Assembly (NCBI GenBank): GCA_021767325.1
Contig: JAASTM010000011.1
Coordinates: forward strand, 1 to 14,464
Length of the DNA stretch: 14,464 bases
Source of the DNA: Spirochaetales bacterium
GTDB lineage: Bacteria; Spirochaetota; Spirochaetia; DSM-16054; Sediminispirochaetaceae
Direction of reading: 5' to 3'
The notes under the pieces: generated by a model
What the model was told of the DNA's origin: nothing
The model's database searches: none
The model's input: only the letters and a program-made list of their open reading frames with translations
Position numbers and translations under genes: made by a program
In this document: positions 1-14,100 of the stretch, piece by piece
Numbering within the stretch: position 1 is the first letter of the stretch
How the letters are laid out: every line of letters starts with the position of its first letter

Positions 1-435
1 GCGCTGCCGGCCGCCATTCTCACCATCACTACACTGGGAGTCGGCTGCTCCTTTTTTCCGGCGGTTCGCCGTATGAAGAACAGCTTTCAACTCGGCTACT
101 ATCTCATACTGATCTTTTCATTGACCGTCAGTTCGATGGCCAATGTGCAGAGCTTAGTACTGTCGGCGCCGATGATTCTGCTGTACGTGGCGGTGCTGCT
201 GGCCTTGGTTTCGGGGATCCATCTGCTGTTTTCAGCTGTTTTCCGCATTGATGTTGATACACATATTATCACATCCACTGCCTTCATTTTCTCTCCGCCC
301 TTTGTGCCGGTAGTGGCAGCGGCGCTGCGGAACAAGCAGGTCATCGTAAGCGGTATCCTGACCGGGGTCACCGGTTGGGTCATCGGCAACTACCTGGGGG
401 TTGCCCTGGCTTATGCGCTCAAAGGCTTTATGTAA
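1..435 (+). CDS. DUF819-family integral membrane protein, C-terminal part (start outside window)
   Basis: The reading frame is open from base 1, so the gene begins upstream of the window and 144 residues of its C-terminus are visible. An ATG at 73 lies inside the open frame and has no convincing ribosome binding site, so I do not take it as the start. The visible part is very hydrophobic, with about four membrane segments. The last part, with SPPFVPVVAAAL, then ILTGVTGWVIGNYLGVALAY, matches the conserved C-terminal pattern I associate with DUF819 (YjcL-like) proteins: a small-residue loop followed by a G-rich helix with GNYLG. These are predicted inner-membrane proteins of unknown function, possibly transporters. 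The next gene begins 21 bases downstream on the same strand, so they are probably co-transcribed. The family call rests on pattern recognition only. Confidence 0.7.
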   Translation, partial: ALPAAILTITTLGVGCSFFPAVRRMKNSFQLGYYLILIFSLTVSSMANVQSLVLSAPMILLYVAVLLALVSGIHLLFSAVFRIDVDTHIITSTAFIFSPPFVPVVAAALRNKQVIVSGILTGVTGWVIGNYLGVALAYALKGFM

Positions 436-456
436 ACCCAGAGAAGGAGTTTCTCC

Positions 457-1587
457 ATGAACGAAGCAGTTTCAATCGAACAGGTCAAACCGGGAACTCA
501 AGCGGAAAAAGAGTTTCTCCAGCTCCCATTTACCGTATATAAAGACAATCCGCACTATGTTCCCTGGTTCACCAGGACCATGAAAAAGATAGTTGCCAAG
601 AATCACCCCTTCTTTGAACACTCCGATGGCGAGTTTTTTATTGCCAAGCGCAAGGATGAGACGGTCGGACGGATTGCACTGCTCGAGCCGAAGCGCTTCA
701 ACGAGTATCAGGATAAAAGGGACGCCCGTTTCTACTTTCTCGAGATAAAAGACGACCTGGGAGCGGCCCGCGAGCTATTCACCTTTGCCGAGGAGTGGGC
801 CATGCAGCGCGGTTTAGACCGCCTGATCGGCCCGCAGGGTTTTTCCGGCTTCACCGGGGCGGGTGTGCTAATCGATGGATTCGATCAAACCGCCTCCATG
901 ACCATGATGAATTACCACCTACCCTATTACCGCGAGCTCCTCGAGTCGGTGGGCTTTGAAAAGTACAAAGACTTTTACAGCGCCGAGATCGATGCCAACA
1001 AACAAATTTTACCACAAAAATACAAAACCTTTGCCGAACTGGCAAAAAAGCGCGGCCGCTTTACCGTGCCGGACCTGTCCACCAAACACGAGCTGCATAC
1101 GGTTGCCCGGGAAGTCGGACAACTCTACAACGAATCCTGGGAAGACCACGAGGAGTTCTGCCCGATGAGTGTGGCCGAGATGAACCAGCTCATTGAGGAT
1201 CTGCTGCAGATAACCGAGCCGTCGCTGGTCAAGATTATCCGCCGTGAGGACCAGCTGGCCGGATTCGTGCTGGCCTTTCCCGATCTCTCGGCTGCACTGA
1301 AGCGGGCCAACGGCAAGGTGAATCCGCTTATCCTGCGTAATCTCATGAAAGAGAAACAAAAAGCCACCAAATACCTGATAAATGGTTTGGGGATCCTCCC
1401 CCAGTACCAGAAAAACGGCGGCATTGCCATCCTCTTCAACGAGATGGCCAAAACACTGCGTCAGCACAATGTCAGTAAAGCAGAAATGACACAGATTGCC
1501 GAAACCACCGATCTGATGATCAGCAATATCAAAAAAATGGGCGCCCGCATCTACAAGACCCACCGGGTCTACCAGAAAAAGCTCTGA
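457..1587 (+). CDS. GNAT-superfamily N-acetyltransferase-like protein (376 aa, probably two GNAT folds)
   Basis: The ATG at 457 is preceded by AGAAGGAG about 9 bases upstream, and 21 bases separate it from the preceding membrane protein gene. The protein looks cytosolic, with no signal peptide or membrane segment. The N-terminal half (about residues 5-180) has a GNAT-like beginning, GEFFIAKRKDETVGRIAL (58-75), and a conserved GPQGFSGFTGAGVLIDGFD stretch (125-143). The C-terminal half (about 215-376) contains GLGILPQYQKNGGIAILFNEM (310-330), which fits the acetyl-CoA pyrophosphate-binding loop and following helix (GNAT motif A). The C-terminal NIKKMGARIYKTHRVYQK fits the end of a GNAT fold. 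Large GNAT-like proteins of this length are widespread, and their substrates are mostly unknown. I cannot name a substrate. The fold assignment is fairly secure; the two-fold reading is inference. Confidence 0.75.
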   Translation: MNEAVSIEQVKPGTQAEKEFLQLPFTVYKDNPHYVPWFTRTMKKIVAKNHPFFEHSDGEFFIAKRKDETVGRIALLEPKRFNEYQDKRDARFYFLEIKDDLGAARELFTFAEEWAMQRGLDRLIGPQGFSGFTGAGVLIDGFDQTASMTMMNYHLPYYRELLESVGFEKYKDFYSAEIDANKQILPQKYKTFAELAKKRGRFTVPDLSTKHELHTVAREVGQLYNESWEDHEEFCPMSVAEMNQLIEDLLQITEPSLVKIIRREDQLAGFVLAFPDLSAALKRANGKVNPLILRNLMKEKQKATKYLINGLGILPQYQKNGGIAILFNEMAKTLRQHNVSKAEMTQIAETTDLMISNIKKMGARIYKTHRVYQKKL

Positions 1588-1667
1588 TTCCGCGCGTTTA
1601 GGGGCCATTTGCTTTTGCTCATTCGAACTTATTACACTTAAAGAAACAGCAACGGAAGGAGGGGCAT

Positions 1668-2015
1668 ATGGAAACCGTACAGGGATTGAATCAGAACGAA
1701 AAGATGTTTCTAGCCGGATGCATGAAAAACCTGATTCTGATGGACGGGAGCATCGAAACCAACGAAATCGAAGGACTCGACGATGTCATCGATGCCCTGC
1801 GCTTCACCGATTTTGACGAACGCCTGGGCAAGTTCGAGGAGCAGACCCACACCTGGGAGAAGTTCTGGGAAGAAGCCTCGCAGATCGAATCGAATGAAAC
1901 CCGCCAATTCATTCTGGCAGTACTCGAGGAGATGGCGGTAAAAGACGCCCTCTACGAGCGGGCCGAACGCAAACTCATCGACGACCTGCGGAACCACTGG
2001 AACATGCCGGCCTAA
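1668..2015 (+). CDS. Small acidic helical protein, TerB-like
   Basis: This 115-residue protein starts at an ATG preceded by GGAAGGAGG, a strong ribosome binding site with about 6 bases of spacing. It is acidic, has no signal peptide and reads as almost entirely helical. Two acidic segments, LMDGSIETNEIEGL (24-37) and AVKDALYERAERKLIDDL (90-107), resemble the paired DG-x-x-E and Asp/Glu helix starts of TerB-like domains, which bind metal or act as interaction modules. This likeness is suggestive only, and a hypothetical protein is the safe call. It lies 80 bases after the acetyltransferase gene on the same strand with no clear terminator between them. Its stop codon directly abuts the stop of the convergent glycosyltransferase gene. 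Confidence 0.6.
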   Translation: METVQGLNQNEKMFLAGCMKNLILMDGSIETNEIEGLDDVIDALRFTDFDERLGKFEEQTHTWEKFWEEASQIESNETRQFILAVLEEMAVKDALYERAERKLIDDLRNHWNMPA

Positions 2016-2027
2016 TTACCGGCCGGC
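2006..2027. terminator. GC-rich hairpin holding the two convergent stop codons in its loop
   Basis: GCCGGCC (2006-2012) and GGCCGGC (2021-2027) form a perfect 7-bp stem with an 8-base loop TAATTACC. The loop contains the TAA stop of the plus-strand gene (2013-2015) and the TAA stop of the minus-strand glycosyltransferase (2016-2018), which touch with no base between them. There is no T-tract on either side, so this is not a classical intrinsic terminator. It may still pause polymerase, protect 3' ends or help separate the convergent transcripts. Confidence 0.45.
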
Positions 2028-2933
2028 CGCGATCTCTCCCTTGTAATGCGCCGCCTTGGCCTCGAACTCCGCGGCTTCGGCACTCTTTCCGCGTTTTCGG
2101 CAGCCGGCGGCATAAATAGCGCATTTTTCCGCGAGCTCCGCCGCAGCCGCCTGCTGGAGTTCAAACGCCCGTGCCGAAGTAAGTGCCGCTGCGGTGTTTC
2201 CGGCCTGCCGGACAAACCAGCGGCTGTGCACCAAATCTTCCAACCCTTTCAATCTAAATAGTTCGATATGTCCGTATTTCTCGGAGAGCTGCTCGCCGTG
2301 GCCGGCCCGCTTAACGATCAGCGGCTCGTCCACATACTCTACCGGGTAGAGGGCCGCCAACCGCAGCCACAGCTCGTAGTCCTCGGCTATCTCCAGGTCC
2401 TCCCGGAACCCGCCTAAGACCTCGTACACATCCCGCCGCATCAGCACGGTGGACGGCCCGATCATGCACTTTTTGAGGGCGTCCGGGAAAACGTCACCCC
2501 GGCGGCTGTGGCAGTGCCGCTTCTGACTGATAATTTTCACATCCCGCAGCCAGATCTCCCTCGAGTGCACCAGCGCCGGTGCGCCCCCCTCCCCCCGCAC
2601 GCTTCGAAGCAGCTCCGCCACCTGCAGCTCCAACTTATCCGGCAGCCAGAGATCGTCGGAGTCGAGAAAGGCAATCAGATCGTAACGGGCGGCCGCGACC
2701 CCGCGGTTGCGGGCCGCCCCCGGCATGCCGCTGTGCTCTATCGGCAGATAACGAAAGCGCGGGTCGGCGGCGAACAGCCGCCGGGCTTCCTCCGGTGGGT
2801 CGGTGGACCCGTCGTCCACCAGGATGCACTCGAGCCGCGGATACGACTGGAAGAGTACCGAGCGCACCGCCTCCAGGGCCAGCTGCGGGCGGTTGTAGAC
2901 CGGAATAACAACACTTATCCAGGGCTGTTCCAT
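2016..2933 (-). CDS. Family 2 glycosyltransferase (GT-A fold)
   Basis: This 305-residue protein transfers a sugar from a nucleotide donor to an acceptor that cannot be deduced from sequence. The N-terminal GT-A domain is complete: ISVVIPVYNRP (6-16), the donor-binding LVDDGSTD (38-45), GAARNRGVAAA (72-82), the metal-binding DSDD (91-94), and EDYELWLRL (184-192) with the likely catalytic acidic residue. Residues about 240-305 form an Ala/Glu-rich helical tail of TPR-like character. There are no membrane segments, so it is cytosolic or peripheral. The ATG overlaps the stop of the upstream vWA frame by one base (TGATG), and GGGAGG lies 8 bases ahead, so it is probably translationally coupled to the chelatase gene. 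No other polysaccharide genes are visible nearby, so the pathway is unknown. Confidence 0.9.
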   Translation of the reverse strand: MEQPWISVVIPVYNRPQLALEAVRSVLFQSYPRLECILVDDGSTDPPEEARRLFAADPRFRYLPIEHSGMPGAARNRGVAAARYDLIAFLDSDDLWLPDKLELQVAELLRSVRGEGGAPALVHSREIWLRDVKIISQKRHCHSRRGDVFPDALKKCMIGPSTVLMRRDVYEVLGGFREDLEIAEDYELWLRLAALYPVEYVDEPLIVKRAGHGEQLSEKYGHIELFRLKGLEDLVHSRWFVRQAGNTAAALTSARAFELQQAAAAELAEKCAIYAAGCRKRGKSAEAAEFEAKAAHYKGEIAAGR

Positions 2934-3841
2934 CAGGCGCCTCCCTCGGCGGTTTCGGCCCGGCCGACGGCGCTCAGCACACTGCCGGCCGACAGGGCCT
3001 CGGAGCCGTAATACCGCCCGCCGGCGGCTTCGGCAAAGCGGCGCATCTCCTGCGTCCGTCCGGCGGACAGCGGCTTGGTGTCGATGCAGATGAGCTCGTC
3101 GGCCTGCCGGCGCAGCCGCGGCAGCAGACCGAGCACCTCGCGGTGGGGATCGGCGTCGCTGTGCAGCGGCACGTTCGCCTCGCCGTCCGACAGCAGCACC
3201 ACAATTTTCGAACCGGCGCTGCCCCGCGAGCCGACCTCGTGCAGCACCTGCAGCCCCTTGGCCAGGGCAGCGGCCATCGGGGTTGCCCCGTCAGGCCGCA
3301 GTCCGTAGAGGGCCTTGCGGGCCAGTGATACCGAGGCGGTTGGCCGCAGGAGCAGTCGAGCCCGCCGGCCACCGAAGGCGATGACCCCGACGCTGTGCCG
3401 CTGCTGGTAGGCCCGGGTGAGCAGCGCCATCACGCTGGCCTTGACCACCGCCAGCCGGCGGCTGGCCCCCATCGAATCGCTGGCATCCACCAGAAACAAG
3501 ACAAAGACCTTCTCGGTGCTACGCCGCACCCGCAGCCGCAGATCACCGGGCGCCACCACAAGCTTCGAACCGGGGTCCACAGCGCTGGCGCTTGCGGGGT
3601 GGCCGCGGTGCAGCAGGCTGTTACGAAGCGTGGAGGTCCAGTCTATGTCGTGAACTTTTTCGCCCGGGCTGGGGGCCCGCGAGGAGACGGTTTTGCCCTG
3701 GCGGCCGCTGCGGCGCCGGCGGCTGCGGCGCTTGCGGTTCTGGGCGGACTTCCAGCCCCGCGGCAGGATGCGCAGCTCCCGGGGCGAAACGTCTATTTGT
3801 TCGGCGAGTTCGGCCTCATCGGCCTCTTCTAGTGTGGGCTT
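2933..3841 (-). CDS. chlD: ChlD-type C-terminal half: Arg-rich linker and von Willebrand A domain, read in the -1 frame of the ChlI-like ORF
   Basis: This is the second half of a ChlD-type magnesium/cobalt chelatase medium subunit. After the slip site the -1 frame gives an acidic segment (PTLEEADEAELAEQ), a conserved PRELRILPRG, a very basic linker (NRKRRSRRRRSGRQGK) and the vWA domain. The MIDAS is intact in fusion numbering: DASDS (D534, S536, S538), T602 in DGATP and D634 in LSDGEAN. Linker and domain order are those of fused AAA+/vWA chelatase proteins. The only possible in-frame start near the domain is a GTG at 3580; it has no ribosome binding site and would discard the linker. No ATG occurs in frame between the junction and the vWA domain. 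I therefore read this as translated only by frameshifting from the upstream ORF, giving 717 residues in total. The alternatives are a disrupted gene or a homopolymer error. Confidence 0.85.
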   Translation of the reverse strand, partial: KPTLEEADEAELAEQIDVSPRELRILPRGWKSAQNRKRRSRRRRSGRQGKTVSSRAPSPGEKVHDIDWTSTLRNSLLHRGHPASASAVDPGSKLVVAPGDLRLRVRRSTEKVFVLFLVDASDSMGASRRLAVVKASVMALLTRAYQQRHSVGVIAFGGRRARLLLRPTASVSLARKALYGLRPDGATPMAAALAKGLQVLHEVGSRGSAGSKIVVLLSDGEANVPLHSDADPHREVLGLLPRLRRQADELICIDTKPLSAGRTQEMRRFAEAAGGRYYGSEALSAGSVLSAVGRAETAEGGA

Positions 3842-5085
3842 TTTTTTTTCAGGAAATCGAAAACGATACTGCCGGCAGCGGCCGAGCCGGGAACCTGCAG
3901 CTCTTCCAGCGGGTCGACCGTGCGCTCGGCCCGGCCTTCGAAAGTGGTCGGCGAAGCCTGACTTTTCCGGGCATCCGGTTCCGGCGAGGCTTCCAGGTCA
4001 GGCAGTTGTACGCCGGCCAGCAGCTGCTCGAGCCGGTCGGCCGCGCTCTCAGGAGTATCGTCCACCCGCCCGCTAATGCGGTGCGGCAGGGCCAGGCGGG
4101 CCGCCTCTTGCACGTCCTGCGGGGCGACCCGCCGGCGACTGTTCAGCGCGGCCAGGGCCATGGCGCATTTAGCCATGACGATATCGGCCCGGTGGCCCTG
4201 CACACCGCCCTCGGCAGCATAGCTGACGATGGTGTCCCACAGCTCCTCCGGCAGCTCGACCTGCGGCAGGAACTCCCGTGCCGCCGCCACCGTTTTACTG
4301 AGGCGCTCTTGCTCGGCCCGCCACTCTTCGGCGAAGCGGCGCTGGTTGGCCTCGAAGGCGATTCTGCGGCGGGCGATCTCTTTACGCAGCGCCGGCTCGG
4401 TCTCGCCCTTTACGCTGATGCAGAGCCCGAAGCGGTCGATGAACTGCGGGCGCAGCTCCCCCTCTTCGGGGTTCATGGTGCCCACCAGCAAAAAGTCGGA
4501 GGGGTGCTGCAGTGAAAAGCCTTCGCGCTCTACCCGGTGAACCCCGGTGGCCGCCGCATCCAGAATGAGGTCGACCAGGTGGTCCTCTAATAGGTTCACT
4601 TCATCGATGTAGAGGATGCCGCGGTTGGCCGCCGCCAGCAGTCCCGGCTCGAAGCGGCGCTGGCCGGTGCGCAGCGTCTCCTCGAGGTGGACCGTCCCGG
4701 CCACCCGCTCTTCGGTGGCGTTCAGCGGCAGTTCGACCAGCGGGACGCGGATGGTGGCGGTTTCAAGGCCGGCGCCGGCGGCGCGGATTTTGTCGCGGCA
4801 CTCGGCATGCGGGCTGTCGGGGTCGGCGGGATCGCAATGGTAGGGGCAATCCTGCACCGTCTGCAGCGGCGGCAGGAGTTCGGCCAGGCCGCGGACGATG
4901 GTGGTTTTGCCGGTTCCCTTTTCGCCGCGGATCAGTAGCCCCCCGATGGAGGGGTCGACCGCATTGGCCAGCAGGGCGGCCTTCAGGCGGGGCTGGCCCA
5001 CCAGGGCCGCAAAGGGGAAGACGGGGCGCTGATACCGGGTCTGTTCGCCCGGGCCGGCTGCACCGGCTGTGTTCGTGTTGCTCAC
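3829..5085 (-). CDS. chlD: ChlI-type AAA+ ATPase, zero-frame product of the chlD-like chelatase gene (418 aa)
   Basis: This is the ATPase module of the metal-chelatase family (magnesium chelatase ChlI/ChlD, or the ChlD-like partner of CobN). It would couple ATP hydrolysis to metal insertion by a large subunit that is not encoded here. Walker A is GEKGTGKT (54-61), Walker B ILYIDEVN (157-164), sensor 1 GTMNPEEG (202-209), the Arg-finger region DRFG (217-220), and the sensor-2 helix HRADIVMAK lies near 300. A cysteine set (C80, C84, C96) in the nucleotide-binding region recurs in the fused ChlD subfamily. The start is GTG at 5085 with GAGG ten bases upstream. A flexible Pro/acidic tail ends in LKKKSPH and TAG. 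The stop comes four codons after an A10 tract, where slippage would extend the protein into the vWA half. The length fits a stand-alone small subunit. No cobalamin or chlorophyll genes lie in the window, so the metal is uncertain. Confidence 0.9.
   Translation of the reverse strand: MSNTNTAGAAGPGEQTRYQRPVFPFAALVGQPRLKAALLANAVDPSIGGLLIRGEKGTGKTTIVRGLAELLPPLQTVQDCPYHCDPADPDSPHAECRDKIRAAGAGLETATIRVPLVELPLNATEERVAGTVHLEETLRTGQRRFEPGLLAAANRGILYIDEVNLLEDHLVDLILDAAATGVHRVEREGFSLQHPSDFLLVGTMNPEEGELRPQFIDRFGLCISVKGETEPALRKEIARRRIAFEANQRRFAEEWRAEQERLSKTVAAAREFLPQVELPEELWDTIVSYAAEGGVQGHRADIVMAKCAMALAALNSRRRVAPQDVQEAARLALPHRISGRVDDTPESAADRLEQLLAGVQLPDLEASPEPDARKSQASPTTFEGRAERTVDPLEELQVPGSAAAGSIVFDFLKKKSPH
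3840..3849 (-). other. A10 slippery tract: probable programmed -1 frameshift or transcriptional slippage site
   Basis: The coding strand reads CTG AAA AAA AAA AGC CCA CAC TAG in the ChlI frame, a run of ten A residues four codons before the stop. Re-reading one base (a -1 slip on A AAA AAA) or inserting one A in the transcript joins the frame to AAG CCC ACA CTA GAA GAG and onward to the vWA domain. I see no clear upstream Shine-Dalgarno-like stimulator. Downstream there is only a weak GGCC-GATGA-GGCC hairpin. The long homopolymer without strong stimulators fits transcriptional slippage somewhat better than ribosomal slippage, but tandem Lys codons allow both. Confidence 0.8.
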
Positions 5086-5089
5086 TCTA

Positions 5090-5118
5090 TTGACACCTCA
5101 TGCCGATATCTCTAGGCT
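5090..5118 (+). promoter_or_regulatory. Candidate sigma70 promoter for the GH1 gene
   Basis: A perfect -35 box TTGACA lies at 5090-5095, and 17 bases later comes TAGGCT (5113-5118), which keeps the three most conserved -10 positions. TATAAG at 5126-5131 is a better -10 hexamer but has no matching -35. The -35 box falls in the leader of the divergent chelatase gene, so the two promoters may overlap in this 70-base gap. I could not pick a minus-strand promoter with confidence. Confidence 0.4.
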
Positions 5119-5155
5119 TACATTCTATAAGATAAACCCTACAGGAGCAACGCAC

Positions 5156-6508
5156 ATGAAACAGCATATTACTACGGGACAGTTTCCCGACGACTTTACC
5201 TGGGGCGTGGCCACCGCCAGTTACCAGGTGGAGGGAGCGGTGGCCGAGGACGGCCGCAGCCCTTCGATCTGGGACACCTTCAGCCACACCCCCGGCAAAA
5301 CCGCCCACGGACATACCGGCGACGTGGCCTGCGACCAGTACCACCGCTACCGCGAGGATGTAGCTCTGATGCGGCAGCTGGGGCTCAAATCCTACCGCTT
5401 CTCCCTCTCGTGGTCGCGTCTGTTTCCCGGCGGCGGACAGGAGCTGAACCAGAAGGGCTATGAATACTACAAAGCCTTGATAGAGGAGCTATTGGCCAAC
5501 GGCATCGAGCCGGCGGTGACACTGTATCACTGGGACCTGCCGCAGGAGCTGGAGGATGCCGGCGGCTGGCCGGAGCGCTTCATAGTCGACAAGTTCGTGG
5601 CGTATGCCGAGCGCTGCTTCGAGCTCTTTCCGCAGGTAAAAAAATGGATCACCTTTAACGAGCCTTTTTGTAGCTCGATTCTCGGCTATCATGTCGGGGT
5701 GCACGCCCCCGGCCGCACCGAGCGCCCGGCGGCCTACCGGGCCATACACCACCTGTTGCTGGCCCACGGCAAGACCGTGCAGGCCTTCCGGGCCCGGCAG
5801 TCCGGCAGCGATGCGGAGATCGGCATCACGCTGAACCTGTTTACCCCGCGGCCGGCCACCCGCCGCAAGGAGGACATCGGTGCCGCCGACCGGGCCGCCG
5901 ACCAGAGCAGCCGCATGTTCCTGGACCCGATCCTGGGACGCAGCTATCCGCAGCGCCATCTGGATGCGTATCCGGAGGTCAAGATGCCAGTGGAGTCCGG
6001 CGACATGGAGATTATCGCCCAGCCGATCGACTTTCTGGGTCTGAACTACTACTGGGAAGATGCCGTTACGGCCGACGAGGAGCAGCCGGAGGGCTTTCGC
6101 ATGGTGCAGCAGTACCAGGACCGCACCACCATGGGCTGGCCGATTACCGCGGAGGGCTTTTACCGCCACATCCGCTGGGTAGCCGCCGAGACCGGCGACC
6201 TGCCGCTGTACATTACCGAGAACGGGGCCGCCTTCCCCGACCGCCTGAGCCCCGACGGGCTGAGCTGCAGCGACCCGCAGCGCATCGACTACCTGCGCCG
6301 CCACTTCGAGGTCTGCCGGCGGGTGATTGCCGAGGGCGTGCCCCTGAAGGGCTACTTTCTGTGGAGCTTTATCGACAACTTCGAGTGGGCTTTCGGATTC
6401 GAGCAGCGCTTCGGCATCGTCTACTGCGACTATGTAAACCAGCGCCGCGTGCCGAAGGACAGCTTCTACTTCTACCGCGACGTGGTAGCCGGGATGGAGC
6501 CGGTCTGA
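5156..6508 (+). CDS. GH1 beta-glucosidase (450 aa)
   Basis: Glycoside hydrolase family 1 enzyme, probably hydrolysing beta-glucosides such as cellobiose in the cytoplasm; there is no signal peptide. The open frame extends upstream, but ATG 5156 is chosen because AGGAG lies 9 bases before it and the family's usual N-terminus, FPDDFTWGVATASYQVEGA (10-28), follows directly. The acid/base is E169 in TFNEP (167-171 region) and the nucleophile is E355 in YITENG. Other subsite residues visible are Q24 (SYQVEGA), H125 and W126 (LYHWDLPQ) and the aglycone/glycone motif WSFIDNFEWAFGF (403-415). The E410-W411 pair fits non-phosphorylated sugars rather than 6-phospho-beta-glucosides. The full family length is present. 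It stands alone: the chelatase gene diverges upstream and a 138-base gap follows. Confidence 0.95.
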   Translation: MKQHITTGQFPDDFTWGVATASYQVEGAVAEDGRSPSIWDTFSHTPGKTAHGHTGDVACDQYHRYREDVALMRQLGLKSYRFSLSWSRLFPGGGQELNQKGYEYYKALIEELLANGIEPAVTLYHWDLPQELEDAGGWPERFIVDKFVAYAERCFELFPQVKKWITFNEPFCSSILGYHVGVHAPGRTERPAAYRAIHHLLLAHGKTVQAFRARQSGSDAEIGITLNLFTPRPATRRKEDIGAADRAADQSSRMFLDPILGRSYPQRHLDAYPEVKMPVESGDMEIIAQPIDFLGLNYYWEDAVTADEEQPEGFRMVQQYQDRTTMGWPITAEGFYRHIRWVAAETGDLPLYITENGAAFPDRLSPDGLSCSDPQRIDYLRRHFEVCRRVIAEGVPLKGYFLWSFIDNFEWAFGFEQRFGIVYCDYVNQRRVPKDSFYFYRDVVAGMEPV

Positions 6509-6592
6509 CGGCGGCCCGGCGGCCCCGGGAGTTTCAGATCCCTATAGCCCCGACCGTCCGTGCGGCGGTGCAGGGCTGCTGATAACACGTAA

Positions 6593-6598
6593 TATAAT
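6593..6598 (+). promoter_or_regulatory. Possible -10 box (TATAAT) for the DA1-like gene
   Basis: A perfect TATAAT sits in an AT-rich island within GC-rich DNA, about 50 bases before the ATG at 6647. No recognisable -35 box lies 16-18 bases upstream and there is no extended -10 TG, so it may need an activator or may be fortuitous. The rest of the 6509-6646 gap holds a GC-rich run just after the GH1 stop without a T-tract, so I do not call a terminator there. Confidence 0.3.
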
Positions 6599-6646
6599 TA
6601 CTTCTCTGAATTGTCGGGCCCGCAGCCGAAGCCTTATATTCGAGGT

Positions 6647-7405
6647 ATGAGCGCAGCGACTTCTCTGCAAAATCCGGTGTGTGCGGTGTGCGGGCAGCCG
6701 ATCGAGGGCAGCTATATCCGCGATTACTGGGGCAACAACTATCACCAGGCCCATGAGAGGACCCATCCGGCCTGTTACTACTGCGGGCGGCTGATTTCGA
6801 AGCGGAGCACTGGCGGGGGCAGCCGCTACTCCGACGGGCGGATGATCTGTAAGCTGTGCCGCAACCGGGCTATCGAGAGCAAAGAGGCTGGGCTGGCGGT
6901 GCTGAACGAGGCGCACGACCTGCTGGAGGGACACGGGATTCTGCTGCGCCCCTTTCGGCCGAAGTTTAGCCTGCTCGACCGACAGACACTACGGAAGTAC
7001 TCGCAAAGCGGAAATGAGCTGGGCTTTACCCAGGCCGGGCGGCGGACGGACCGGCGTACCGGACGGATTATCGAGCTGAAGATTCAGGTGTTTATCCTGG
7101 AGGGGCTGCCCTACGAGGCCTTTCTGGCCACCGCCGCCCACGAGCTGATGCACGCCTGGATCCATCTGAACGGACGGCAGGATGCGGCCCGCTGGTTCAA
7201 AGAGGGCAGCTGCAATATGGCCGCCTACCTGGCGCTGCGGGCCAAGCGCAGCTACGAGGCGGAGTACCAGATCGAGCAGATGCGCCGGCAGACCGACCGG
7301 GTATACGGAAAAGGCTTTCGAAAGGTGCTGCGCTACACCCAGCGCCGGGGCACCACCGCCTGGCTGCAGGCCGTGCGAACGCGGAAGCGACTGCCGCTGC
7401 TGTGA
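6647..7405 (+). CDS. DA1-like zinc metallopeptidase with N-terminal LIM-type zinc finger
   Basis: This 252-residue protein joins a LIM-like zinc finger to a peptidase-like domain. The finger has CAVC (C12, C15), a histidine cluster (H33, H37, H40), CYYC (C43, C46) and a closing CKLC (C68, C71). The second domain holds AAHELMHAW with HExxH at 165-169, and KEGSC with E186 in the spacing expected for a third zinc ligand. This order (LIM, then an HExxH followed by an EG motif) is that of the DA1 family, known best from plant DA1/DAR peptidases. The C-terminus is basic. There is no signal peptide, so it is probably cytosolic. The frame runs upstream to a TTG at 6611. I prefer ATG 6647 with GAGG just before it, although that spacing is unusually short. 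Its substrate is unknown. Confidence 0.75.
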   Translation: MSAATSLQNPVCAVCGQPIEGSYIRDYWGNNYHQAHERTHPACYYCGRLISKRSTGGGSRYSDGRMICKLCRNRAIESKEAGLAVLNEAHDLLEGHGILLRPFRPKFSLLDRQTLRKYSQSGNELGFTQAGRRTDRRTGRIIELKIQVFILEGLPYEAFLATAAHELMHAWIHLNGRQDAARWFKEGSCNMAAYLALRAKRSYEAEYQIEQMRRQTDRVYGKGFRKVLRYTQRRGTTAWLQAVRTRKRLPLL

Positions 7406-7501
7406 GGTTCTGCGCAGGGTGGGGCGGAAGCTTGGGCGCCAAAGATAAATAGCGCCGAACGGCACCTTGCTTCAGGGGCCGCGACGGTTTGATTCTCCAT
7501 G

Positions 7502-7547
7502 AAAAGGCCCCCCGAGACTGCGATGTGCAGCCGGGGGGCCTCTTTTT
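7502..7547. terminator. Strong bidirectional intrinsic terminator between convergent genes
   Basis: GGCCCCCCG (7506-7514) pairs perfectly with CGGGGGGCC (7532-7540), and an inner CTGC/GCAG stem extends the hairpin. TCTTTTT follows on the plus strand and AAAA precedes it, giving TTTT on the minus strand. It lies between the ends of the DA1-like gene (7405) and the 5'-nucleotidase-like gene (7584) and can serve both. The preceding stretch 7406-7500 holds nothing I recognise apart from a weak 5-bp GGCGC/GCGCC hairpin. Confidence 0.85.
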
Positions 7548-7583
7548 GTGCTTTTGTGTTTTTGTGTGGCGCCCGCGTTCTAT

Positions 7584-9488
7584 TTACTCATCCAAGCGAA
7601 TTACCCGCGGATCGGCAGGCGGGTCCGGCATATTCACGCTACTGTTCAGCGCTTCGCTGATGTAGCGGGCCAGGACTTCCTGCTCGCCGATGTCGGTGCG
7701 TTGGGCTCCGCGCTCCTCCGAGGCGGATTTGAGCATGCGGTAGCCGTCGCCGCCGGTCAATAGAAATCCGTTGGTGGCCATGACGATGCGGCGGTCGGAC
7801 AGGTTGCCCTGCACCTCGCCGTCTCTGACCAGTGTGTCGGTGGTGCCGTCGTCATATGTGACCTGCAGGTTCACCACGCGGCTCGGTTCGCTGACGCTGG
7901 TCTCGCCCATTACTCCGGGCTGGCTGGCGTCGTACTCGAGCTGCATGCCGGCAATCTGCGGAAAGCGTCCGTCCGCCGCCGGAACCCGGCTGACCGCATT
8001 TTCCATGGCCGCCAACAGTTCGTCGCCGGTCAGTTCGACCACGGCGGTCTTGTTGTCGAATGCCAGTGCCGACTGAATGGTAAAACGGGTAACCTTCGGC
8101 CCCTCGATGGAGGCGCGTATACCACCGCCGTTCTTCAGGGCTACATCAACTCCCAGATCGGGGAAAGCCTGCCGGGCATACCACAGGGTGGAATCCGCTG
8201 CTAAGCGTCCCAGGTTGGTGGCGCGGCCGCGGACACTGGCCCGTTGGCCGTTGAGCGGTTTCTGAGTGCTGCCGACCTGTTCGAAGGCGGTTTGAATGGT
8301 CGGGGTTTTGGTCAGCGCCTTGAATATCGATTCGACCCTTTGCGGTGTCTCGAGTGAGTGGCCGAGCTTGGTTTCGAGTTTGTCGATTGCTTCCGGGGTA
8401 GTTGCCACTGGTCCGCTGCGCGGGTCAACGCCGATCACATGGCCTTCGCTGTCGAAGGTTACGATCAGATTACCGACATAGCGGTAGAGCTGGCCGCTGT
8501 TCACGTTGACTACGAAGTTCCCGTCACGGTCGCGTAGAATAGTCGGATAATCCACTCCGGAGCTGTCTTCGGGCCGCAGCATGTTGTAGGGTCCGTCCGC
8601 TTCGGGGCGGGCCATGAATCCGGTGGCTCCGGCGGTTACCAGGATGTCGATGCCCCGCAGTTTGGAGGCTGCCAGCGGGTCGGCGGTGTAGTCCTGGGCA
8701 TGGTCCATCAAGATGATCTTGTTGATGCCTTTGCTCTGCAACAGCCGCACTTGCTCCATCACCTGCTGCACAGCCGAGACCTTCGGCTGGTTGGTTTCGG
8801 GGTCGCGACCGCCGTAGAAATCGAGTCCGGGAATAGTTTCCTCGGGATCGTTGATCACATTGAAGAAATCCGCCGGAGCTCGGCCGATGAGGCCTATCCG
8901 TTCGCCGCCGATCTCCACATAGGAGCTGCGGGCAACCTTGCCGGCGTTCTCTTCGACGCTGGCGCCGTCTTCGCCGATCTCGATCTCCGGAACCCCTTCA
9001 GCCAGTTCCACATCGCTGAAATCGAGGTTTACCGCCAGAAAGGGATAATCGGCCTTTTCGAGCATACGGGCAAAATCGTTAATCCCACCATCAAAGACAT
9101 GGTTGCCGATTCCGTTGGCCGACAGTCCCATGGCGTTGAACATGGCGATATCACCCAGGCCCGGCGCTCCGAGTTCGTCCACCTCGGCCGCTGCATTATA
9201 GAAGGGCTTCGGCAGGGTGTGGTCGCCGGCCGTCACGTAAATGGTATTACGGCCCTCATTCGGGGCGATTTCGCGCAGTCCCTGCATAACAGTGCCGTAG
9301 TGAAGTATCTTTGGTTCGAGGGTGTTCGGATCCTGGAAGGATGACTCGTTATCTGAACTGTGAAGTACCTGGAGAGAGTAGGTACTGACCTCCTGCATCC
9401 CTTTGGCCGTTACGGAAACGGCCGCGCCGAATAGAAATGCCGCAACTACTGTGAGTGTTACGACGCGCGTAAGGATCTTGCGTTCCAT
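7584..9488 (-). CDS. Secreted 5'-nucleotidase/UshA-family metallophosphoesterase, atypical metal-site subfamily (634 aa)
   Basis: The ATG at 9488 has AAGGAGG five bases ahead, a strong site; the open frame upstream of it lacks one. Residues 1-28 are a Sec signal peptide (Lys/Arg start, hydrophobic core, VTA cleavage before K29), so the protein is exported. The N-terminal metallophosphoesterase domain keeps GD (D89) and GNHVFD (N129, H130) and a DHAQ histidine near 261. The usual DxH is DNE (HSSDNES, D46/E48), and the usual GHxH is replaced by AGATG near 285. From memory, a subfamily of these enzymes has SDxE and GGSN-like replacements, so this looks like a divergent branch rather than damage. 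The C-terminal 5'-nucleotidase domain is present, with NGGGIRA near 450 and a late TGGDGY. Family members remove phosphate from nucleotides or sugar nucleotides in the periplasm; the actual substrate here is uncertain. Confidence 0.85.
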   Translation of the reverse strand: MERKILTRVVTLTVVAAFLFGAAVSVTAKGMQEVSTYSLQVLHSSDNESSFQDPNTLEPKILHYGTVMQGLREIAPNEGRNTIYVTAGDHTLPKPFYNAAAEVDELGAPGLGDIAMFNAMGLSANGIGNHVFDGGINDFARMLEKADYPFLAVNLDFSDVELAEGVPEIEIGEDGASVEENAGKVARSSYVEIGGERIGLIGRAPADFFNVINDPEETIPGLDFYGGRDPETNQPKVSAVQQVMEQVRLLQSKGINKIILMDHAQDYTADPLAASKLRGIDILVTAGATGFMARPEADGPYNMLRPEDSSGVDYPTILRDRDGNFVVNVNSGQLYRYVGNLIVTFDSEGHVIGVDPRSGPVATTPEAIDKLETKLGHSLETPQRVESIFKALTKTPTIQTAFEQVGSTQKPLNGQRASVRGRATNLGRLAADSTLWYARQAFPDLGVDVALKNGGGIRASIEGPKVTRFTIQSALAFDNKTAVVELTGDELLAAMENAVSRVPAADGRFPQIAGMQLEYDASQPGVMGETSVSEPSRVVNLQVTYDDGTTDTLVRDGEVQGNLSDRRIVMATNGFLLTGGDGYRMLKSASEERGAQRTDIGEQEVLARYISEALNSSVNMPDPPADPRVIRLDE

Positions 9489-9697
9489 AAAAACCTCCTT
9501 AAATTGTACAAATGTGTGCCTTTCAAACTCATAGAATATTCGAAAGCGCCACAGATGCACGTCCAGTAAAGCATTGGGTGCATTTTTAAACGTAAAAATA
9601 AATGCCCCGCAAGGCAAACCGAGATAAACTTGAAACTGGCCTCCGTCCATCTGGCAGCACTCTTGAGTCGCATTATTGGAGCCGTGATTAGAGCTAT

Positions 9698-9726
9698 TTG
9701 AATTATTTCTCGAGGTGGATTATTAT
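9698..9726 (+). promoter_or_regulatory. Sigma70-type promoter for the CsgG-like/barrel gene
   Basis: TTGAAT (9698-9703) and TATTAT (9721-9726) are separated by exactly 17 bases, placing the transcript start near 9733 and giving a leader of about 29 bases before ATG 9762. The rest of the 273-base divergent gap (9489-9761) is AT-rich. It contains two 8-bp palindromes, TTGTACAA (9504-9511, just upstream of the nucleotidase ribosome binding site) and GAATATTC (9534-9541), which could be operators. I see no convincing minus-strand promoter. Confidence 0.6.
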
Positions 9727-9761
9727 AAAAACCAGTTCTACTCTTGTTTTATGGAGTACTC

Positions 9762-11033
9762 ATGAGAAACTCACTATTGTTCTGTGCGGCGCTGTTGTTC
9801 GGTATAGTTGTTGCCGTAGCACCGGCCCAGACCGCCCTCGATACGGCCGTGGAGGAACTGACCACCGATCTTTCCCTCCAGTTCAAAGCCGACCACCCCG
9901 ACCTGGTCTTTCGGCCCAACCTGGCGGTTATAGAGATTACTGATACTTCAGAGGAAGCTCGCCAACACAATATCGGTGACACTCTGACGGTTTTGATTGA
10001 GACAAAGCTTCAACAATCCACCATCTTCAACCTGATCGATCCGGAAAAGCGCGACACTCTGCTAGCAGAAATCAAATTCTCCCTCTCCGGACTCTCCGAT
10101 ACCGAGCGCCTGGAACCCGGCCGCCTGGCCGCCGTGGACTACTATCTCGACGGTACGGTTAGCTCGTTGGCCGACGAGTTTCGCCTAACCCTCCGAGCGA
10201 TCGAAGTAAACAGCAGCTCGGTCATTTTCACCGGTACCGCTCAGATAGACAAGGCGCTGCTCATCGAGCGAAGCCGCCAGCTGCAGGCCGCCTACGTCAG
10301 CCGCTATGGAATTGGTATCGAGATTTCGGCGGTTCCCTTCATGTACCTGCATAGTACCGCCGCCGACATTGAAGGGCAGCCCGTCCCCGGCCAGACCATG
10401 CTGATGCAGCTCGACCTGAACTACCGTCTCAACCGCAACTTTCTGTTCTGGGGCAGCTTTCAGTTTTCCGCCGGCGGCATCCGATTCAGCGACACTTGGG
10501 AGCCGGACGCCACCTACAGCGCCGCCGATTGGGATAATCTTGGTGATCCGGGCGGAGCGGGCGGCAACAACGACCTCCAATATTCGAAAGACCGCACGTA
10601 CTGGTCTACCGGCCTCGGTGCCGGTTATGTATTCAACCTCAACCGGAACTTCAATATTACCCTTGGGGGGCAGCTGCAATACGACATGCACTATCTAACC
10701 CAACTCTACCGTATGCCCAATACCGGCAGCGGCGGTGAGACGGTTTCCAACATCATCACCTCCGCCGATGCACGCACAACTGCCGCCGGCCCGGTACTGA
10801 AACTGCAGTATTTCCTGGGCCCGCGCTTCACCCTGAACCTGCGCTACAGCTACATGCAGCAGCAGACGGAGGAAAAGGCCGACCTGTTTTACTATTCGGA
10901 CGTGCGCTACAGCGAGGGCGAATCTATCCCGGCCCTCTATGAGCTGCGCCCAAACCTTGATATTAACGGTCGAGAGCACAGCTACGACCTGTCCGGCCAC
11001 CGGATGAGCTTGGGAATTGGGTTTTATTTTTAA
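9762..11033 (+). CDS. Outer-membrane protein: CsgG/FlgO-like periplasmic domain plus C-terminal beta-barrel
   Basis: The open frame starts at a TTG (9744), but ATG 9762 is preferred because GGAG lies 5 bases ahead and a clean signal peptide follows (MRNSLLFCAALLFGIVVAVAPA, cleaved near A22). The early Cys is not in a lipobox. Residues about 53-163 resemble CsgG/FlgO/LpoB-type domains: a strand (LAVIEITD), a helix with Leu repeats (IGDTLTVLIETKLQQ), NLIDPEKRDTLLAEIKFSLSG, then YYLDGTVSSL and strands ending in GTAQID. From about 180 onward there are alternating hydrophobic strands rich in Tyr/Asn/Gly, ending in MSLGIGFYF; a terminal Phe is typical of proteins inserted by the BAM complex. It therefore likely spans the outer membrane with a periplasmic domain. 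It may anchor or export another envelope protein, but this is inference. It is convergent with the giant surface protein gene. Confidence 0.7.
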   Translation: MRNSLLFCAALLFGIVVAVAPAQTALDTAVEELTTDLSLQFKADHPDLVFRPNLAVIEITDTSEEARQHNIGDTLTVLIETKLQQSTIFNLIDPEKRDTLLAEIKFSLSGLSDTERLEPGRLAAVDYYLDGTVSSLADEFRLTLRAIEVNSSSVIFTGTAQIDKALLIERSRQLQAAYVSRYGIGIEISAVPFMYLHSTAADIEGQPVPGQTMLMQLDLNYRLNRNFLFWGSFQFSAGGIRFSDTWEPDATYSAADWDNLGDPGGAGGNNDLQYSKDRTYWSTGLGAGYVFNLNRNFNITLGGQLQYDMHYLTQLYRMPNTGSGGETVSNIITSADARTTAAGPVLKLQYFLGPRFTLNLRYSYMQQQTEEKADLFYYSDVRYSEGESIPALYELRPNLDINGREHSYDLSGHRMSLGIGFYF

Positions 11034-11058
11034 TTCGTTGAGTACTCTTTGAGAAGAT

Positions 11059-11101
11059 GGCGGCGCGCCGATTGCAGATACTGCTGTTTCGGCGGGCCGC
11101 C
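11059..11101. terminator. Bidirectional hairpin between convergent genes
   Basis: GGCGGCGCGCCG (11059-11070) pairs with CGGCGGGCCGCC (11090-11101) over 12 positions with one G-G mismatch. The loop contains an inner GCAG-ATA-CTGC stem. It sits between the stop of the barrel gene (11033) and that of the giant surface protein (11108). The flanking T-rich sequence is weak on both sides (ATTTATTTG on the plus strand), so its efficiency is uncertain. Confidence 0.6.
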
Positions 11102-11107
11102 TAACAT

Positions 11108-14100
11108 TTATTTGACTACCAGCACCTTCCTGTATTCATCTATATCCGGCGCAGTTACACGGATGTAATAGATACCCCGGGCCACGATGTTGCCGGCTTG
11201 GTTGCGGCCGTCCCAGCTGATGGCGTACTCGCCGGGGGCTTGGGTACCTCGCTTGAGGATATCCACCAGATCGCCACCGAGATTGAATACTTGGATAGTT
11301 ACTCGTCCACCCTTTTCGAGTATATAGAACAGGTCTACTTTCTCACCCTTTCGCGGGTCGATTACATTCTTTAGTATCGATACTTGACTGGTTTGTGCCC
11401 TTACTTCCTGCAAGTCGAAACTCCAGGTTCGTATTCTGCGGTACCAGTCAGCGGTCGAAGGATCGCTGCAGCGGCCGTGATATAATGGAGGAGTTCCACC
11501 ATCGGGGTATTCAAAGAAAAAGTCAAACGAAGTGTTGTCAATTAATTCGCTGTTGCTTGAAGCAATGGTATGAGCTGCAATGTTCGCCGCCACATCGGTG
11601 TCGGGTAGGTTATCCACTCCTGTAGTAAGCGGAAACGGGACGATACCGCTAAAATCGCTTTCGTCGAAATTCGGTAACCATAAGCCCGGGTTGTCGCTGC
11701 TGATAAAAGTCGAAGCGACCTGGGTATTGAAGTGTATTCTTGCAGATCCGCCCGTTCCGGCTACATTACTTTCTATGTAGATCGCTTGGGGTTGCAGGAA
11801 GTCCGTCGCATCGAAGTCGGTAATCCGCCCGATATCGGGTTCGCGTTCGATACTACGCTGGGTTTCGGTGTTAATAGCATATACCGGCTGAATGACACCG
11901 AGGCCTACGTCGGTGAGACGATGCACGTTTTCGGAGGCTACATTCGGCGTGGAGGCCATATCCCGGAATCCAGCAAATATATTCAGTCGCGGGTCTCCGG
12001 CTAACTGACCGGTGTCGCGAATATCGTCGGGTGTCACTGCGGTAGTCAGCGGCAATACCAGCTCTTTAACCCCACCGTTTTCCGTACTTACCGTTGTAAT
12101 ACTGCCCACATTGTCGATTGCAGCGCCGGCTGTATTTTCCAATGCAAAATCAGCGGTTGTGAACGCGCCGCCCCCGGCGCTTTCCACTCCTTCGGAGAAA
12201 TGGACGAATAGTTCATCTCGAGGACCGTTTGCTATCGATAGTGTATATCCTATAACCGGCTCGGCAGCATCTTCCATGACCGGCGGTACTGCCGGCATAG
12301 TCACGATATAGGTTTCGGTCGCGCTGTCGACCAAGGTTGTATTATTTATGATGTCCCACGAAGGCGTAGCGCCGGTATCTAAGTAAGGTTTCTCCTGCAA
12401 ATAGATGACGAAGTCCTCTGCGTTCAACCCTACGTTCACCCCAAGCGCGTACCCGGTAATGTCATAACCATCTACCTCAGCCTCAAATCCGTCAAATTCT
12501 TCATACGGATCTGGTGGAGCGGTGTAATCTTTTAATGGTGCCGGAAGAGTTATTACCAATCCATCGATTTTTCCGTTTTGATCCTCATCCCAAGTTCTAT
12601 TGCTTTGAACTAACATCTGACTGATCCAACCAGGTGTAGTACCAGGGTCTGTAAACATCGAGCCTGTAATCACGTTGATGTTCCGAGGAGTGGCTTCACT
12701 GTACTGTATTCCCACATTGTCCATTGCGATCGATGCACCGGTCTGTAGATCGAAGATAAAATATTGGGCTTGCGGGCCAGTGTAGCCCTGATTCGTAAGC
12801 AAGATACTCCAATTGTTGCCCGTTACCGGTCCCTGAATAGTAAACATCCCTCCACTTATAATTCTGGTGGTACTCCCGTTTGCAAACGCCAGCGTACCGA
12901 CAACAGTTCTGGAAAAATTGTAGAATGCATTATCTCCGCTGATGACTTGATCGGGCGCACCGGCAACCGGAGCTACCGGGAGTACACCATAGGGATCATT
13001 TCCAACTGTATCAAAAATAACCTCGCTCTGGTTTGCAATAAAACCGCCGAAATTGTCTGCTCCCGCCATTGCACTATCGCTGTTATTGTTGTTCGTCCAA
13101 TTGCCGCCTACATCAAATGTGTAACCGGTATTGACAAATTCAATTTGACCGATATTATCGCTGTCGCTGTCAATTGTTACATTTCCATTGACAGTAATAT
13201 TCGCATCCAGCCGCAGATTACCATCGATAATAACCAGGTTGTTACCAACCGTAAAATCGCCGGTAGCGTTATAGTTCTGAGCACCTTCGATAAACAGATT
13301 GTTGAAGGCTGCAGTGGGAATAACTATGGAACCCGCACCGCCGCCATCGGTATAGCGGAAGGATCCGACGGTTGTGTACGCAGTGATGGTTTGGGTTCCG
13401 GCCCGTCCGGTCAGCTGGATTTCACCGTTATTATCGAGGTCATTGATCTCGAAATCGAAGGATTGTAGGTCGACATAATCAGTCGCTGAAGCAATGCTAA
13501 GCTGTCCATCTACAAACAGTCCTGTTGAGGTGGCCGAGTTGATGACCTGCACAGTACTGCTGCTGTTGACTGTCACGTTATTGAAGCGGCCGTTCATGCT
13601 GCCGTCGGAATGCAGGGTTTGAGTTGCACCGCCTTCGAAGGTCACGGTGTTCCCTGCAGTCAAGGTGCCGAAGTTAGTCCAATCTCCGGATAGATTGATA
13701 TTGTTTGTACCAGTCGCCAGTTCTCCGCCGCTGATTCTGAAGTTGCCGGCCACATCGAACACACCGTTCTGGGTAATGGTTCCACCGGCCTGCAGAGTGA
13801 GGTTAGCCGGTGCAGTTATAGCATTTACCGTCATGTCATTTACATCGCGGATGGAAATGTTATTTGCCCCTGAGTTCGAAACCGAAATATTGCCGCCGAA
13901 ATCGTTGTTCGCGTCGTTCAAGGCTATCGCGCCGGCATTTCCGGTGATATCCGTTGTTCCGGTCACGGAAATCTCGCCGCTCTGACTGATTCCCGACTGA
14001 GTGGTAACAGTCAGATTTCCGCTTATACTGCTGGAGGCTCCAGCGAATGCAAATGTATCCAAGTCTTGCAATTGGACCGTCGCGCCGGCGGAAATTACTA

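Follow-up and report, generated by a model that had tools for sequence, protein, structure and literature searches.

A conserved A10 tract as a probable slip site in a spirochaete chlD-type gene with two predicted products

A chlD-type gene on the minus strand of a 14,464-nucleotide stretch of DNA from a Spirochaetales bacterium (GenBank assembly GCA_021767325.1, contig JAASTM010000011.1, positions 1 to 14,464; hereafter the window) is divided between two reading frames that meet at a run of ten A residues. Comparison with relatives indicates that this is most probably one gene with two products, in which the conserved A10 tract acts as a slip site and gives a ChlI-size and a ChlD-size protein. 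Transcriptional slippage appears somewhat likelier than ribosomal frameshifting as the cause, with a mixture of the two taking up the small remainder. The gene adds a species to the known fs-chlD family of recoded genes, in which a ChlI-like AAA+ part is followed by a von Willebrand factor A (vWA) part in another frame.

The frame break and its conservation

The zero-frame open reading frame (ORF) ends in ...IVFDF CTG AAA AAA AAA AGC CCA CAC TAG, with the stop (3831-3829) three codons past the run, and the C-terminus of the short product reads ...FDFLKKKSPH. The -1 frame (AAG CCC ACA CTA GAA GAG...) is open from within the A10 run to a TGA at 2935-2933, and its vWA part is joined to the AAA+ part only by a slip. 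A slip at the third AAA would link 415 residues to 302 and produce a fusion of 717 amino acids with the predicted junction peptide ...FLKKKKPTLEEADEAELAEQ... The features of the gene, in window coordinates, are as follows.

3829..5085, minus strand: zero-frame ORF of 418 amino acids with a GTG start, a ChlI/CobS-like AAA+ ATPase; best solved relative ChlI 8osf_A (E 1.4e-94)
5094..5098, minus strand: AGGTG, a Shine-Dalgarno-like sequence 8 nucleotides upstream of the GTG at 5085, from sequence reading
4903..4926, minus strand: GEKGTGKT, presumably Walker A, most positions invariant across relatives
4594..4620, minus strand: GILYIDEVN, which we take to be the Walker B region, from sequence and alignment of relatives
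3841..3897, minus strand: QVPGSAAAGSIVFDFLKKK, the conserved tail directly upstream of the slip, from alignment; disordered in an AlphaFold2 model
3840..3849, minus strand: the putative A10 slip tract, codons AAA AAA AAA A (T10 on the plus strand), from sequence
2933..3841, minus strand: continuation in the -1 frame, KPTLEEADEAELAEQ..., with an Arg-rich linker and the vWA domain, 302 amino acids plus stop, from sequence and Pfam/NCBIfam
3470..3487, minus strand: DASDSM, presumably the first MIDAS motif (DxSxS) of the vWA domain, from sequence and domain search

Without a slip, the ribosome would make an intact ChlI/CobS-like AAA+ ATPase that ends in a short lysine tail. A one-base slip in the A10 tract, either as one A added to the message or as a ribosome moving back one base, would yield the same AAA+ part followed by the Arg-rich linker and the vWA domain, which amounts to a ChlD-like protein. 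The short and long products would probably form a two-tier AAA+/AAA+-vWA ring, an arrangement found in BchI:BchD.

Both domains were confirmed by Pfam and NCBIfam profile searches. A first-pass annotation of the same DNA had described an AAA+ frame and a -1 vWA frame that break at the A10 run, product sizes of 418 and 717 amino acids, and an intact vWA/MIDAS domain behind an Arg-rich linker, and all of these hold. The best NCBIfam match is TIGR02442, putative cobaltochelatase, with 471 + 167 bits for the two parts against a whole-protein cut-off of 779; the zero-frame ORF matches TIGR02442 and TIGR02030, both under the whole-protein cut-off.

The A10 tract is the sole A/T run of at least 8 within the window, and an A/T run of at least 10 appeared anywhere in 1.75% of windows simulated with a first-order Markov model. 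It lies where the two frames overlap, and relatives share it. In the window, the -1 frame stays open over 169 nucleotides upstream of the zero-frame stop. Among the 16 members of the window's clade (described below), 10 have a T preceding the run that creates a -1-frame TAA overlapping the run, so in those members the frame change must occur inside the run itself.

The -1 frame of the window contains no ATG, GTG or TTG from its upstream stop to 200 nucleotides past the A-run. The first candidate start is a GTG at 3580, which opens a vWA frame of 215 amino acids and which could in principle give two separate proteins, an AAA+ protein alone and an internally started vWA protein, with no fusion. 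This is very unlikely. Inspection revealed no Shine-Dalgarno-like sequence before the GTG, the second-frame starts differ in place among relatives and several relatives have none nearby, and the conserved A-run would be left unexplained. An internal start was rejected on the first two grounds, and the proposal that the -1 frame lacks a plausible start of its own stands.

Relatives were drawn from two main sources. Scanning the species genomes of bacteria and archaea supplied the best 80 loci of at least 513 confirmed relatives. Of 392 genomes sampled from the phylum of genome G001, 16 had a match at E <= 1e-40. Further loci were added from 159 matching genomes (30 loci) and from 77 matching genomes (30 loci). 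All loci are the best matches of their searches and form no random sample; they were classed only by their blast hits to the two domain parts, AAA+ and vWA, before the break was inspected. This gave 54 readable broken loci and 99 unbroken rows, the latter including at least three second copies (L102, L159, L192). The counts omit L083, L111, L142 and L147, which are second copies of L001, L060, L012 and L063, as well as L163, which has an unreadable stretch. L094 is included among the 54 as A9 with a -1 continuation, and L014, whose AAA+ ORF has an in-frame stop ahead of the vWA part, is in neither count.

A tree was built from 137 AAA+ domains, made up of the 99 unbroken and 38 broken rows, with 16 Chloroflexi rows of near-identical sites omitted. 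It requires at least nine changes between broken and unbroken states. The members from Spirochaetota and KSB1, including the window, form one group of 16 rows (SH-aLRT 91, by a quick method), and all 16 are broken. Their runs are A9 in nine, A10 in six and A11 in one, the run starts at codon phase 0 in 13, phase 1 in two and phase 2 in one, and the frame relation is -1 throughout (by inspection in L094). L094, from genome G013, has a second frame break downstream of its A9 site that its sister genome G056 (L093) does not have, and which may be a sequencing error or a real indel.

The closest relative, L146, is 77% identical over the portion covered by its short contig, and it has the identical A10, the same KKKSPH tail and the same neighbouring glycosyltransferase. 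Between the window and L146, the ratio of nonsynonymous to synonymous substitution rates (dN/dS) is 0.208/1.375 over 205 AAA+ codons and 0.164/1.120 over 293 post-slip codons, about 0.15 in either case. Purifying selection thus acts on both halves of the gene. Errors are common in homopolymers of 10 and 99 rows outside the clade are unbroken, but a decaying pseudogene of an unbroken 700-amino-acid chlD, or a mistake in sequencing or assembly, is so improbable as to be largely refuted, because L146 shares the A10, dN/dS comes to about 0.15 before as well as after the break, and the same kind of break occurs in 54 readable loci with varied run lengths and compensated flanks. The first-pass view of one chlD-type gene split by a slip site into a ChlI-size and a ChlD-size product is thus supported, and the A-tract and frame break, whose conservation in homologues it had proposed to check, recur in the clade, in which every sampled member is broken at A9 to A11.

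Run length, frame direction and the mechanism of slippage

What is kept at the break is run length. A pure A-run stands at the break in all 54 readable broken loci (A8 in 2, A9 in 40, A10 in 11 and A11 in 1), and it begins at codon phase 0 in 16, phase 1 in 34 and phase 2 in 4. Background A-runs of at least 7 in the same loci are distributed as 381 A7, 107 A8, 22 A9 and 4 A10, which means that 5% of them reach at least 9, compared to 52 of the 54 break sites. Many of the 54 are related, with 28 Chloroflexi rows (many with the same site) and 16 rows from the window's clade, and the effective sample is smaller than the count. In the unbroken rows, a linker run of A9 or longer occurs in four of 99 (L052, L112, L150, L152). 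The run is A9 to A10 in these four; in L052, L150 and L152 a one-base slip was computed to terminate soon after, so that slipping would yield a short form, the mirror image of the broken genes. Several genes keep the run while their AAA+ ORF otherwise favours AAG, with AAA:AAG counts of 1:14 in L084, 0:16 in L085, 0:6 in L093 and 0:4 in L094; the window's own AAA+ ORF favours AAA, 6:3 over AAG. No broken chlD was found in Pseudomonadota, where 398 genomes were sampled, 30 had a match at E <= 1e-90 and 30 loci were examined; published cases exist in Pseudomonas and Delftia.

RNA polymerase slippage is somewhat favoured because the feature conserved is a run length of at least 9, and not a phased heptamer or a stimulator. 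Heptamer frameshifting needs seven phased As, and at least two additional As are kept at 52 of the 54 sites regardless of phase; the window's A10 likewise has the length of about 9 or more expected of transcriptional realignment. Slippage by bacterial RNA polymerase is efficient at runs of nine As or Ts, the hybrid in Thermus is 9-10 bp, and dnaX of T. thermophilus yields mRNAs with extra As (PMC5009743). A -1 relation would be restored in this way by one added A. Downstream RNA structure beyond that of shuffled sequences was found neither across the 54 sites (mean z -0.09 for 50 nucleotides and -0.05 for 70 nucleotides) nor at the window's site (z = +1.2, no stimulator signal), with separate shuffles for the 22-site and 54-site sets. 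A downstream stimulator was therefore discarded as a property common to the sites of this sample, and the earlier impression of weak stimulators is supported.

The direction of the frame change is not conserved among methanogen orthologues. At one site in Methanoregula-type archaea, A8 goes with a +1 relation (L063), A9 with -1 (L148, L149, L151) and A10 with continuous reading (L150). Two more distant relatives have A10 with +1 (L155) and A9 in frame (L152). A 2013 survey reads transcriptional realignment from mixed frame directions and ribosomal frameshifting from a single shared one (PMC3711429).

The alternative is that -1 frameshifting by the ribosome on A_AAA_AAA or A_AAA_AAG within the run makes the fusion, with the length of the run raising its efficiency. 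This is a serious possibility, though the less probable of the two, and the literature leans toward it: the chelatase gene is treated as programmed, translational or ribosomal frameshifting, and transcriptional slippage is not proposed for it in the consulted parts of PMC9227772, PMC3711429, PMC5009743, PMC8211752 and PMC8037382. The relation is -1 at 52 of the 54 sites. Against ribosomal slipping stand the lack of any run shorter than 8 in the sample although 7 suffices, the lack of downstream structure, and the +1 or in-frame relation that close relatives among the archaea show. In E. coli reporters, chelatase cassettes with 11, 9 and 7 As gave 63%, 40% and 10%, respectively (PMC3711429), yields that fit either mechanism.

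Several observations weigh against transcriptional slippage. Every A-run of at least 9 also holds an in-frame A_AAA_AAN heptamer, which is compatible with ribosomal slipping. Chloroflexi rows are uniformly -1 (28/28), as is the window's clade (16/16), and under the rule of PMC3711429 these two groups point to ribosomal frameshifting. In the archaeal series, the A8 of L063 and the A10 of L150 each come from a single assembly, in which homopolymer errors are possible. Shine-Dalgarno-like 4-mers upstream of the run are somewhat enriched, at 15 of 54 compared to 8.1 expected, which was too weak for an upstream stimulator to be adopted. In addition, there are published genes outside the present sample: one published fs-chlD cassette has just 7 As and still gave 10% (PMC3711429), and Pseudomonas-type genes have strong structure potential (PMC5009743). 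The run-length rule and the lack of structure therefore need not extend beyond the sample.

As a family, broken chlD genes can tentatively be described, with slightly less than even confidence, as transcriptional-slippage genes in which selection would maintain a run of about the length of the RNA polymerase hybrid (A9 being the mode), in any phase and with any frame at the DNA level, and which would give a mixed pool of mRNAs as the source of both subunits. On this description they would encode an AAA+/vWA machine free of a chelatase subunit in Spirochaetota, KSB1 and Chloroflexi, with the tail marking the short form in Spirochaetota and KSB1.

The conserved tail, the large subunit and the probable task of the pair

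Behind the AAA+ lid the linker varies, but the final 19 residues before the slip, QVPGxxAAGSIxFxFLKKK, are nearly invariant in seven aligned sequences. All clade members except L086, whose version has diverged, carry a strict form of this pattern (15 of 16), and the other loci compared lack it, second copies aside. An AlphaFold2 model of the short form, built with 28 sequences, has a confident AAA+ domain, and residues 366-418, including the tail, have a predicted local distance difference test (pLDDT) score below 50; this disorder offered no clue to the role of the tail. The tail could serve the short form in docking, or it could act in the ribosome tunnel.

The first-pass annotation had proposed that the gene supplies both the small and medium subunits of a CobN-type cobalt chelatase. 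This is unlikely. In its favour are the TIGR02442 match given above and CbiC, a marker of the cobalamin pathway, which is found in two near relatives (G376, G382). However, CbiC was not found in the other 13 of the 15 Spirochaetota/KSB1 clade genomes, and a profile search for the large subunit (PF02514, CobN/ChlH) found it in none of the 15 (13 plus G835 and G787). Several of these genomes are metagenome bins of unstated completeness; in four (G376, G355, G056, G013) the gene lies on a single contig of full genome size, 2.5-4.7 Mb. PF02514 was likewise not found in 27 of the 28 Chloroflexi genomes carrying the broken gene, the exception being G492. For the two main broken-gene clades together, the search thus failed to find CobN/ChlH in 42 of 43 bacterial genomes.

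The large subunit does occur elsewhere, and its presence in all six tract-bearing methanogens searched and in G404 counts in favour of the CobN proposal. It is also present in three of four other genomes (G398, G399, G400, G402), and in six of eight Spirochaetota whose best matches are of other types. One of these Spirochaetota, G137, has in addition a broken chlD (L101, A10) that belongs to a different lineage.

Pfam searches of ten window proteins (ORF 11108-14464 not included) found no cobalamin, chlorophyll or chelatase domain besides this gene. Gene neighbourhood was rejected as a clue to the task, since no gene except the fs-chlD parts is shared across the window and 13 relative loci, which were compared with each other without annotation. 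As for a separate chlI, for which the first-pass annotation had suggested a search, a single chlI/chlD-like match at E <= 1e-40 was found in each of eight fs-chlD genomes (at most four candidates scored per genome), and four genomes with all candidates scored again had one match each.

Judged from the genomes of relatives, the pair in the window's organism most likely does its work with no chelatase subunit. Absence of the large subunit, with function unknown, has been noted for two species (PMC9227772). In a clade in which CobN/ChlH was not found, the pair is more likely to help another protein through remodelling or metal insertion than to be a tetrapyrrole chelatase. The AAA+/vWA domain pair prompts the guess of a role like that of NorQ/NorD or RavA/ViaA in maturing another protein.

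The gene directly downstream may be affected by the slip as well.

2016..2933, minus strand: family 2 glycosyltransferase, whose ATG (2933-2931) overlaps the vWA-frame TGA by one base; also a neighbour in L146

The stop of the vWA frame and the glycosyltransferase start overlap as TGATG at 2931-2935, and in L146 the glycosyltransferase GTG lies inside the last codons of the vWA frame. Translation of the glycosyltransferase may therefore be coupled to the long form, in which case the slip could control that gene too. The glycosyltransferase neighbour is common to the window, L146 and L001, and a GNAT-family protein is shared with L001 only. Elsewhere, the window encodes a DA1-like domain protein (PF12315; 6611-7405), of a family better known from plants, and a long ORF of 1118 amino acids (11108-14464) that runs off the window and, by its sequence alone, looks like a repetitive surface protein.

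Relation to known systems

In magnesium chelatase the motor comes from two genes, and the enzyme also has a large H subunit. Chains of the BchI:BchD and ChlI:ChlD motor (PDB 1g8p, 2x31, 8osf) are matched by the AAA+ and vWA parts of the window gene. The difference is that here one gene encodes both, no H subunit was found in relatives, and the AAA+ part of the long form keeps its Walker motifs. NorQ/NorD and RavA/ViaA, which are MoxR/vWA pairs, are similar in that AAA+ and vWA partners mature or insert metal into another protein with no chelatase subunit; they differ in having separate genes and another AAA+ subfamily, and a shared function would be a guess.

The two products of dnaX share an AAA+ N-terminus. 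In T. thermophilus dnaX, an A/T run of 9 gives two products by programmed transcriptional realignment, with demonstrated RNA heterogeneity (PMC5009743). The slip proposed here would resemble it, in another gene and complex.

The closest precedent is the fs-chlD family itself, with published genes that include those of Spirochaeta thermophila, without a large subunit, and Brevefilum fermentans; their recoding was described as translational frameshifting, usually with downstream stimulatory structures (PMC9227772). The likeness extends to one AAA+/vWA gene, an A-rich slip site, a short and a long product, and no large subunit in the stage 1 species (PMC3711429, PMC9227772). In the window gene, too, the vWA part lies in another frame behind a ChlI-like AAA+ part, and the overlap of the frames contains an A-rich slippery run that relatives conserve. 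It differs in having no structure signal and an A9-mode run pattern that would fit transcriptional slippage. Membership in the family stands all the same, because structure is called usual and not obligatory (PMC9227772). The present comparison adds three things that were not met in the available parts of those publications: the pattern of run lengths, the series of frames in archaea and the conserved tail.

Should the break prove to be a site of transcriptional slippage, a family now filed under ribosomal frameshifting would have to be re-filed. The archaeal relatives with A8, A9 and A10 provide a natural series for a test of the mechanism. Moreover, the question of what a ChlI-ChlD motor does without a chelatase becomes testable.

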